From Sphaerochaetaceae bacterium (GTDB lineage: Bacteria; Spirochaetota; Spirochaetia; Sphaerochaetales; Sphaerochaetaceae), in assembly GCA_028532915.1 (NCBI GenBank), contig JAQQAI010000011.1:1-55605 (forward strand): 55,605 nt of DNA, written 5' to 3'. Both the position numbers and the translations under genes were made by a program. Shown here piece by piece: positions 52,460 through 55,605 of this stretch (its first letter is position 1; each line of letters opens with the position of its first letter). The notes under the pieces were generated by a model, which saw only the letters and a list, made by a program, of their open reading frames with translations, ran no database searches and was not told where the DNA came from.

Positions 52460-53428
52460 ATGAATATCGGAATAATCGGAGCCGGAGGCATCGCAAAGAA
52501 GATGGCCCGGACTGTGAACGAGATGGATGATGCTGTTCTGTATTCGATCGCATCACGCTCAATTGAAAAAGCAGAAAGTTTCGCCGGGGAATTCGATGTC
52601 GAGAAAGCATACGGATCCTACGAGCAGCTTGTATCGGATGACAAGGTCGATCTGATATATGTCGCAACCCCCCACTCTCACCATTTCGAGCACATGAAAC
52701 TGGCTCTGGAACATGATAAACCGGTTCTCTGTGAAAAGGCATTCACAGTGAATGCGAAACAGGCAAAGGAGATTCTTCAGATCTCCAAAGAACGCAATGT
52801 TCTCGTCGCAGAGGCGATCTGGACCCGGTATCTTCCTTCACGGAAGATGATTGATGATCTTATCGATTCGAAGATCATAGGAGAGGTTAAAAGTGTCACC
52901 GCCAATCTCGGGTACGTGATAGATCATGTTCCCCGTCTCGCCCAGCCATCCCTTGCCGGCGGGGCCCTGCTGGATGTCGGAGTCTATACGATCAATTTTG
53001 CGATGATGGTTCTGGGTAATGCATATGAGAACATCTTCAGCGCGGCGACTTTCACCGAAACGGGCGTCGATGCACAAAACAGCATCACGCTGACTTATCC
53101 GAAAATGGTCACAGCTATACTTCACTCTTCCCAGCTGGCATTAACCGATCGCCGCGGAATGATCTTCGGTACAAAAGGATTCATCGAGGTCGAGAACATC
53201 AACAATCCCGAAAGAATCAGAGTCTTCGACAAAAACTACGAACTATTACAGGATCTTCAGGTCCCGCCGCAGATCACAGGATTCGAATATCAGGTGAGAG
53301 CCTGTATGGAAGCGATCAGAAAGGGATCTGTCGAATGCGAACAGATGCCCCACAGTGAGATCCTCAAGGTCATGGAGACGATGGACATGATCAGGGCTCA
53401 GTGGAACATGACCTATCCGTTCGAATAG
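52460..53428 (+). CDS. Gfo/Idh/MocA-family NAD(P)-dependent oxidoreductase
   Basis: 322-residue dehydrogenase with an N-terminal Rossmann fold (GIIGAGGIAKKMA) and the family's EK motif written CEKAFTVN near residue 89. The region RYLPSRKMIDDL and GGALLDVGVY near residue 172 resemble dihydrodiol dehydrogenase-like members. GAGGAG lies seven bases before the chosen ATG; an ATG five codons earlier has none. Transcribed divergently from the peptide operon. The substrate, probably a sugar or cyclitol, is unknown. Confidence 0.88.
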   Translation: MNIGIIGAGGIAKKMARTVNEMDDAVLYSIASRSIEKAESFAGEFDVEKAYGSYEQLVSDDKVDLIYVATPHSHHFEHMKLALEHDKPVLCEKAFTVNAKQAKEILQISKERNVLVAEAIWTRYLPSRKMIDDLIDSKIIGEVKSVTANLGYVIDHVPRLAQPSLAGGALLDVGVYTINFAMMVLGNAYENIFSAATFTETGVDAQNSITLTYPKMVTAILHSSQLALTDRRGMIFGTKGFIEVENINNPERIRVFDKNYELLQDLQVPPQITGFEYQVRACMEAIRKGSVECEQMPHSEILKVMETMDMIRAQWNMTYPFE

Positions 53429-53437
53429 ACTTTTCCT

Positions 53438-53466
53438 GTCACGTCGCAGGTCCCCTGTGACGTGAC
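53438..53466. repeat. long imperfect palindrome after the oxidoreductase gene
   Basis: GTCACGTCGCAGG (53438-53450) pairs with CCTGTGACGTGAC (53454-53466), a 13-bp stem with one G-T pair and a 3-base loop. The plus strand has no T-tract afterwards. It may be a weak terminator or a protein-binding site. Confidence 0.6.
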
Positions 53467-53707
53467 TGAAGGAATCTTTGAATATCTTTCATCTCGAAAG
53501 AAATGGTATCTGAAGAATAATCCGTATGACGCAATAGAGTCCTTTTGAAGAACCTCATGGACATTAAAATGCAATCATAATCAGATTGTACTTAAAATGT
53601 CCTATGCTTATCACTATCTTTTTGTATATAATAAGAAATAAAGCATTATCTGTTCAGTCGGCTTTTCATTCAAAACCGCATATCAGGTATAGAAGGATAG
53701 AATACCT

Positions 53708-54820
53708 ATGGATGATTTCAGGATACATTCTTATAGAGTCAGCGAACAAGCGGTGAGCGAATATGAGAATTCTCTGAAAAAACTTCTTGCAATGGTCGAC
53801 AAGGGGATGACTTTGCTCATCAACGACAAGGACCTCATAGGCACGAACCCTCTTTCTGTGATGTATGATAATCACCACAATCATGCGAAACTGCTTTTGA
53901 CCGTTCTGACATTCAATGACTTCAATATGCTTGAAAATATCCTGCCGTGGGTAATCAGAAACTATTCCATAAAAGGATTCACCGAAGAGTATTTTTCACA
54001 AGTGCTCTCTCAGTGGCAGAATGCGATCACAAAATACCTCACTGCCCCGAGTGCCGGCGAGATCCTTCCGGTTTACAGATGGATGGCTTCCAAAGTGGAA
54101 TATCTGTATCGTAACAGCGAAGTCATATCCGCCCCTGCAGAGAATGCCCAATCTCTTGTGAACAACATCCGGGACTCTAGGGTGAGAACATTCACGGGAC
54201 TGCTGGTTACCGGAAAGCACGACGAATCGATGGACTTGATAATGTCTCTCGCAAAGAACAGAGAATCGCTTAAAGAGATCTACACCGACATCATCCGGCC
54301 TTCGATGTATGAGATCGGCGGACTTTGGGAGACCGATAAGATATCAGTCGCACACGAACATCTTGCAACATCGATCGTCTTGAGAATCATCACCCATTTC
54401 TACAGTGATTTCGTGTACACTGAACCCACAAAGGGAAAGATCCTGGTGACAGCTGCCGCTGATGAACATCACGAAGTAGGAGCGAGGATGATCGCCGACC
54501 TTCTCGAGATGGAAGGGTGGGATGTATCATATCTGGGGGCTGATATCCCGACCGATGATCTGATACGGATGCTCGATTCTGTGAGACCTGACATCCTCTC
54601 CATCTCCGTGACGATGGCATTCAATCTTCTCCAGGTGAAAGACCTCATCACTGCTGTCAGAAGGAAGCCTCGTTTCAATCAGGTGAAAATTCTGGTAGGA
54701 GGACATGCTCTGATCCATGCAGACAAAGCCCGTAATATGCTGGGAGCCGACAGAATCGGAATGACCGCCGTCGATACTCTCAAGATCATGACACAATGGT
54801 GGGAAGAAGAAATACAATGA
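53708..54820 (+). CDS. cobalamin-binding sensor protein, CarH-like
   Basis: The 370-residue product has an unrecognised N-terminal region (1-150), a helical B12-binding cap domain (about 157-235) and a Rossmann-type cobalamin-binding domain (243-370). The lower-ligand motif is E-x-H-x-x-G (Glu253, His255, Gly258). The cap contains Trp207 followed after nine residues by Glu217-His218, the W-x9-EH arrangement of adenosylcobalamin photoreceptors such as CarH. There is no DNA-binding domain. A perfect TATAAT at 53627-53632 may be its -10. Its stop overlaps the diguanylate cyclase start (ATGA), so the two are probably functionally coupled. Confidence 0.82.
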   Translation: MDDFRIHSYRVSEQAVSEYENSLKKLLAMVDKGMTLLINDKDLIGTNPLSVMYDNHHNHAKLLLTVLTFNDFNMLENILPWVIRNYSIKGFTEEYFSQVLSQWQNAITKYLTAPSAGEILPVYRWMASKVEYLYRNSEVISAPAENAQSLVNNIRDSRVRTFTGLLVTGKHDESMDLIMSLAKNRESLKEIYTDIIRPSMYEIGGLWETDKISVAHEHLATSIVLRIITHFYSDFVYTEPTKGKILVTAAADEHHEVGARMIADLLEMEGWDVSYLGADIPTDDLIRMLDSVRPDILSISVTMAFNLLQVKDLITAVRRKPRFNQVKILVGGHALIHADKARNMLGADRIGMTAVDTLKIMTQWWEEEIQ

Positions 54821-55605
54821 TAGATAACATCATACCCAGAAAGATTTTCGAACTGTATCATAATCAGTTCAGCGATATGCCCTTAATGGTTGTCGACCTT
54901 GACGGAATCATCACCTACTGCAACAAAGCCCTCATAAGGAGACTGCGTCTGCCTGAAACTCCAAAAAGGAAAGAAATGAGTTCGCTGATACAATTGGACC
55001 TGTCGATGACCGATCCCCTGTTCGAAGATATCGACAGCCGCATCACTGTCAATCTCATCTCTACCTCCATCGTCTCCAACGGAGAACATATTCACATCAG
55101 AGGACATGTCTTCTATGATGGAAATCAGTATGTCATTATATTCAATACATATAAACAGGATTATGAACAGATACTCGAACAGGTGAATCAGCTGAACGCT
55201 CAGATGTCCTCGATCACGAGAGATTCGGTCAAACAATACAAGCTGAAAAGCCGTCAGGCTGAAAAGAATCTTGATCTGGCTCTGCATGATCAGCTTACAA
55301 AACTGGCAAACCGACGTCTGTTCATACAGATTCTGTCGAAGGCAATGGCTGCGGTATCCGAGAAAGATTCAAAACTCTCAGCCGGAATCATCCTGTTCGA
55401 TATCGATAATTTCAAAGATGTGAATGATAATTACGGTCACGACAGCGGAGATCAGGTACTGATAAAACTATCAAGAACAGTCGAGAACACAATAAGAAAA
55501 CACGATACACTTTCCAGATACGGAGGAGAAGAATTCATCATTCTCGTTTACTGCGATGCGCTCGATGAACTGGCAAAAATGGCCGAGAAAATCCGTCATA
55601 CGGTG
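54817..55605 (+). CDS. PAS-like/GGDEF diguanylate cyclase, truncated by window edge
   Basis: Open frame of 263 codons running off the right end. Residues about 15-110 look like a PAS-type sensor domain (MPLMVVDLDGIITYCNKAL). A coiled-coil-like helix (about 115-150) follows, then a GGDEF domain starting at HDQLTKLANRRLF near residue 160, with FDIDNFKDVNDNYGHDSGD and the active-site GGEEF at residues 236-240. The substrate-binding and catalytic residues are intact, so it should make cyclic di-GMP from GTP. No membrane segment is seen. Starts inside the stop of the cobalamin sensor gene. Confidence 0.9.
   Translation, partial: MIDNIIPRKIFELYHNQFSDMPLMVVDLDGIITYCNKALIRRLRLPETPKRKEMSSLIQLDLSMTDPLFEDIDSRITVNLISTSIVSNGEHIHIRGHVFYDGNQYVIIFNTYKQDYEQILEQVNQLNAQMSSITRDSVKQYKLKSRQAEKNLDLALHDQLTKLANRRLFIQILSKAMAAVSEKDSKLSAGIILFDIDNFKDVNDNYGHDSGDQVLIKLSRTVENTIRKHDTLSRYGGEEFIILVYCDALDELAKMAEKIRHTV

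Follow-up and report, generated by a model that had tools for sequence, protein, structure and literature searches.

Introduction

Photocobilins such as SasPcob and AbDPcob (PDB 8J2W/8J2X/8J2Y) join a B12-binding domain, with a Trp and Glu-His (W/EH) cap and a His ligand, to a globin of the phycobiliprotein type (PMC10979010). In AbDPcob a GGDEF domain is fused to these and is light-activated: adenosylcobalamin (AdoCbl) binding lowers the diguanylate cyclase (DGC) activity relative to the apo form, and light raises it more than 10-fold; isolated photocobilin domains also act in trans on a separate DGC (PMC10979010). D270 of SasPcob holds biliverdin rings A-C and Trp296 contacts the D ring; AbPcob, without the bilin Asp, is still called a photocobilin, and substitution at that site weakens binding. 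Photoglobins (Schneider et al. 2022, as cited in PMC10979010) and BBAG-2 globins (PMC10151467) are bilin-type globins associated with a B12-binding domain, fused or adjacent, and photoglobin-B12 proteins with the B12 domain at either chain end are mentioned (PMC10979010); such proteins and their GGDEF fusions are already known. CarH of Thermus thermophilus (PDB 5C8A/5C8D) has a B12 fold with the motifs Wx9EH and ExHxxG coupled to a MerR domain, and His132, next to its Trp, gives bis-His ligation; proteins proven to respond to light can have Gln, Tyr or Arg in its place. The signature of light-responsive B12 domains (SignatureFinder) is GxxW, EH, GxxH, GxxxP (PMC11796333). Our literature search found no paper on a split, overlapping sensor-cyclase pair, on the partner motif or on the NHxNH globin clade described below, and partial overlap with Schneider et al. 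2022 is possible.

Results

A globin-B12 protein with reversed domain order

The window, the stretch of 55,605 nucleotides that was analysed, is the whole of contig C11 of a 2.64 Mb genome assembled in 96 contigs. The probable sensor gene (53708..54820, forward strand, as are all window features below) encodes 370 aa, and the ORF, the Pfam matches, the AlphaFold2 model (pLDDT 90.5 for the whole sensor) and 24 aligned relatives define an N-terminal globin followed by a CarH/photocobilin-type B12-binding domain. The latter comprises a four-helix cap with W207-x9-E217-H218 (residues 165-229, 54200..54394; B12-binding_2, PF02607, E 1e-11) and a B12-binding Rossmann domain with E253-x-H255-x-x-G258 and G277-x3-P281 (residues 243-348, 54434..54751; B12-binding, PF02310, E 6e-20). 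Its best structural match is 8J2W (Z 25.1, rmsd 2.0, 206 residues aligned), followed by CtMerR (22.8) and CarH (about 19.6-19.7), and photocobilins are also the best solved relatives by sequence profile (E 2e-49). The NCBIfam CarH model gave 57 bits against a cut-off of 400, and the Pfam scan detected no HTH domain in the sensor, which has a globin where CarH has its MerR DNA-binding domain.

The initial annotation had proposed a cobalamin sensor with a CarH-type Trp207-x9-Glu217-His218 cap and an E-x-H-x-x-G motif in this ORF, and had noted the missing DNA-binding domain; both motifs and the absence were confirmed. The likeness to CarH holds for the cap motif, but photocobilins are closer solved relatives (Z 25.1 vs 19.7), and the B12 fold and cap had been recognised while the globin that forms the N-terminal half was overlooked. 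With a predicted phycobiliprotein-type globin at residues 10-137, the sensor looks less like CarH minus its DNA-binding domain than like a photocobilin whose domain order is reversed. It differs from the described photocobilins in the N-terminal position of the globin, in an Asn at the equivalent of Asp270 and in genomes without heme oxygenase. No cobalamin riboswitch was present in the window at the Rfam gathering threshold, the promoter scan gave no convincing site immediately 5' of the sensor gene and a terminator scan of 53300-55605 found nothing; PHROGs gave no match, and the viral contigs searched gave no relative.

Conservation of the cap and cobalt-ligand residues

Relatives were gathered by overall similarity, not by motif, from 61 relatives of the genome, 393 genomes of the phylum and one genome collection scan, with an additional search of 395 genomes in the phylum of a Desulfobacteraceae hit. 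The resulting alignment holds 24 sensors from spirochaetes and Desulfobacterota: 14 close (NHxNH-type) orthologues and 10 sister-clade members. Thirteen residues named here are invariant in all 24: W81, G204, W207, E217, H218, E253, H255 and G258, and also E267, W271, S300, G331 and G332. Since W207, E217, H218, E253, H255 and G258 are identical in every one of these similarity-found relatives, the Wx9EH match is more than chance; lack of conservation of Trp207 and Glu217-His218, which the initial annotation had named as grounds for abandoning its reading, was thus not encountered. In the corrinoid methyltransferase and MetH homologues that these searches also returned, the B12 motif is DxHxxG and the cap position has no Wx9EH; one 986-aa MetH ORF (L035) has a Wx9EH match somewhere along its length.

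The B12 domain of the sensor carries, as photocobilins do, the Trp and EH of the cap and the lower His, and it contains the CarH motifs Wx9EH and ExHx2G...S...GG, the stretch up to GG exceeding the published x22-27 by one residue. Three of the four signature elements are present (G204-G-L-W207, E217-H218, G277-x3-P281); in place of GxxH the sensor reads D252-x-x-H255, and among its relatives this first position is D, N, G or S. The site of CarH His132 is occupied by Glu208.

Other Wx9EH proteins were encountered. Within the class of the window genome, a Cro/CI-type HTH_3 domain is fused to a Wx9EH B12 domain directly 5' of a DNA photolyase gene (L012:1228-3566), which resembles the layout of CarH but with another type of DNA-binding domain and a neighbour related to light; two further HTH_3-B12 proteins with Wx9EH (L013:1477-2376, L017:1384-2286) adjoin a tocopherol-cyclase-like gene and an acyl-ACP thioesterase gene. 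An ordinary CarH-like regulator, a MerR-B12 protein with Wx9EH, is encoded in the same genus as the window (L034:1057-2085), which makes B12 photoregulation plausible in that genus.

The N-terminal globin and possible chromophores

Residues 10-137 (53735..54118), with N55-H56-x-N58-H59 and W81, are predicted with high confidence to form a globin of the phycobiliprotein/photoglobin type, as found in photocobilins in the same chain as the B12 domain. Modelled alone, residues 1-145 reached an AlphaFold2 pLDDT of 93.9, and the structural matches were smURFP (Z 14.9), allophycocyanins (13-14), RsbR-N (13.3) and the photocobilin globin (12.3), heme globins scoring nearly as high. Allophycocyanin, smURFP and the RsbR N-terminal globin share the fold (Z 13-15) but only about 10-14% identity with the sensor, in which Met52 replaces the covalent-bilin Cys. 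A profile of 26 such globin domains matched a phycobilisome core protein (E 1.7e-6) and the photocobilin globin (E 0.005), and 4 of the 26 members matched PF00502 (best E 1e-7); the profile of the NHxNH clade alone (A3) gave no significant PDB match. The two globin clades matched each other in a profile-profile comparison (hhalign, probability 87.5, E 4e-6), and this match, together with the model and the wider profile (A5), is the basis of the assignment. A heme globin was considered, as that fold matches too, and rejected: the F helix of the model (72-88) has no His in the window protein, and ordinary proximal-His heme binding is therefore unlikely.

In the alignment N55 falls on the Asp of CxRD and on D270 of SasPcob, M52 lies at the bilin Cys position and the invariant W81 at SasPcob Trp296, the SasPcob correspondence using a numbering offset of 5 derived from the EH motif. 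Asn55 stands at the place of the bilin-holding Asp in all 14 close orthologues, among which N55, H56 and H59 of the pocket never vary; the sister clade keeps the Asp in 7 of 10 members. The sensor clade is distinguished from photoglobins and BBAG-2 globins by NHxNH in helix E, by the missing bilin Asp and by the lack of a detected heme oxygenase. Globins of this family encoded by separate genes were seen at two loci: a small one beside a stand-alone Wx9EH B12 protein and a PAS-kinase (L039:1444-2659), and a lone small one adjoining a sigma54-type regulator (L041:1435-1908).

Heme oxygenase (PF01126) was detected in none of the 16 genomes carrying this sensor type, which makes a biliverdin chromophore doubtful. 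A HutW-type anaerobic bilin source was below cut-off in all genomes checked, the only hits being sub-threshold radical-SAM paralogues; a non-canonical bilin source is conceivable. The window genome encodes a BtuR-type adenosyltransferase, so that conversion of corrinoid to AdoCbl is plausible from its gene content, and no PduO-type enzyme (PF01923); other corrinoid proteins, MtaC-like and MetH-like, are also encoded.

An overlapping cyclase gene interrupted by the contig end

The sensor stop (TGA 54818-54820) and the cyclase start (ATG 54817) overlap in an ATGA (54817..54820). This overlap with a PAS-like GGDEF gene had been correctly described beforehand, with no mention that the contig end truncates the cyclase. 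The PAS-coiled coil-GGDEF gene (54817..55605) has 263 aa in the window and its remaining 52 aa on contig C42: the end of C11 and the start of C42 (L089) share 109 identical bases (window 55497-55605) inside the GGDEF gene, and the contig end at 55605 is an assembly break within it. The completed cyclase (263 + 52 = 315 aa) has an intact GGEEF catalytic motif and RKHD I-site (both within RKHDTLSRYGGEEF; 55496..55537, approximate to a codon or two) and the GGDEF domain end, that is, a GG[DE]EF site in a complete GGDEF domain, and the orthologous enzyme at L007 is complete too. Pfam gave E 2e-31 for GGDEF and a weak PAS_8 match (21.0 bits, cut-off 21.8).

Partners of the orthologues and a shared linker motif

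A GGDEF gene lies directly downstream of the sensor in 7 of the 14 close orthologues (window, L007, L047, L048, L049, L050, L053), mostly overlapping or abutting it; a histidine kinase (HK) follows in two (L005, L051), response-regulator (RR) and/or kinase neighbours occur in four, all spirochaetes (L036, L037, L038, L040), and the neighbour at L052 was left unassigned. The sensor-GGDEF pair is thus also present in a different spirochaete family (L007) and, at L047-L050 and L053, in the phylum to which the Desulfobacteraceae hit belongs. Sister-clade sensors have GGDEF partners (L009-L011, L065; upstream at L057) or kinase partners (L056; L058 and L064 by sequence resemblance). The tree, with 5 label changes and many open forks, favours neither GGDEF nor kinase coupling as the older state. 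The initial annotation had envisaged a two-protein sensor-GGDEF module, to be given up if orthologues never adjoined GGDEF genes; half of the close ones do, and the pair recurs as proposed, but the output varies, about half having histidine kinases or response regulators instead. At L009-L011, in the family of the window genome, the partner cyclases read AGDEF in place of GGDEF, and their activity is uncertain.

Comparison of the partners revealed a motif in the linker between PAS and GGDEF, LNAQMSSITR in the window (55192..55221, approximate to a codon or two). Its coiled-coil consensus, LNNELxxLxREL, is common to most GGDEF and kinase partners; it is absent from the L009 partner and was not seen in the RR/HK neighbours of the four spirochaete orthologues. 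Among about 14 distinct GGDEF proteins checked in the window genome only the window's cyclase has the motif, and in two further genomes (G817 and G656) 2 of the 19 GGDEF proteins carry it, exactly the two adjoining a Wx9EH gene; as the definition was drawn from the partners themselves, these counts are a check of specificity, not an independent test of discovery. A role of LNNELxxLxREL as a docking element is possible, at the level of a guess.

Discussion

We propose, with somewhat better than even confidence, that the pair is a split photocobilin-type light switch, in which the cyclase, encoded in AbDPcob as part of the sensor chain and here by a separate overlapping gene, is the enzyme most likely controlled by the sensor. 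AdoCbl would be bound base-off between the four-helix cap and the Rossmann domain, with His255 beneath the cobalt and Trp207, Glu217 and His218 above the adenosyl group, roles assigned because of homology to CarH and photocobilins and of complete conservation. Without light, the sensor with its adenosyl group in place, probably as a head-to-tail dimer, would dock on the cyclase translated together with it, at the PAS and coiled-coil linker, and hold the GGDEF dimer in what we infer to be an unproductive register. Green light would break the Co-C bond, the adenosyl group would leave and the cap would shift; the released cyclase would then produce c-di-GMP, with its intact I-site as a brake, and this direction of control is taken from AbDPcob. 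Since no bilin source was found, the N-terminal globin is probably a packing and allosteric element.

Given the precedent of the light-activated AbDPcob, gating by light is the most probable reading. D252 at the Gly of GxxH and the motif missing from the four spirochaete RR/HK neighbours speak against the proposed switch. The conserved cap and ligand residues would equally suit AdoCbl binding in the dark, and the sensor could instead read the cellular AdoCbl supply (or a redox or ligand state), its AdoCbl-bound and empty forms holding the cyclase or kinase differently. BtuR and the other corrinoid proteins of the genome fit this account, as does the lowering of AbDPcob activity by AdoCbl alone relative to the apo form (PMC10979010); we nevertheless give it about one chance in four, as the signature-bearing domains tested elsewhere are light-responsive and AdoCbl is intrinsically photolabile, so that illumination would affect the cell either way.

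A true dual-chromophore photocobilin, in which the globin would hold a linear tetrapyrrole as well and widen the sensed range to red light, appears improbable. The phycobiliprotein type of the globin, the alignment of W81 with the Trp296 of SasPcob that contacts the biliverdin D ring and the full conservation of N55, H56 and H59 in the clade of 14 would suit it, but PF01126 is missing from all 16 sensor-carrying genomes, no HutW equivalog exceeds the cut-off and Asn55 replaces the bilin-holding Asp, a site at which substitution weakens binding in AbPcob. That the two genes are mere neighbours, the role of the B12 protein being unrelated to the cyclase, is very improbable: about half of the close orthologues do have other neighbours (HK, RR), but these are nearly always signal-output proteins, and the overlap and the common partner motif recur across two phyla. 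Extending the split light switch to the whole group, we tentatively suggest, and with less confidence than for the window pair, a split photocobilin system without heme oxygenase, in which a globin-B12 photosensor would act in trans on an interchangeable partner, a DGC or a histidine kinase, by way of a common PAS and coiled-coil transmitter; the globin pocket of the photosensor, with NHxNH, would have been remodelled to take another ligand or to take none.

CarH and a few photocobilins are the main known cases of B12 photoreception, which this pair would extend to a recurrent two-gene module in spirochaetes and Desulfobacterota. The transfer of the signal from a stand-alone B12 photosensor to its partner has been called less clear (PMC10979010); the pair suggests a route for it to another protein, and the short partner motif is a testable candidate for the sensor-partner contact. 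A further question is the function of a phycobiliprotein-type globin where the genome has no heme oxygenase, a matter relevant to the origin of bilin-binding globins. With its sensor and enzyme separable, the pair could be of use in optogenetics and, as it is also found in distant bacteria, control of signalling by light or B12 through separate proteins may be widespread.
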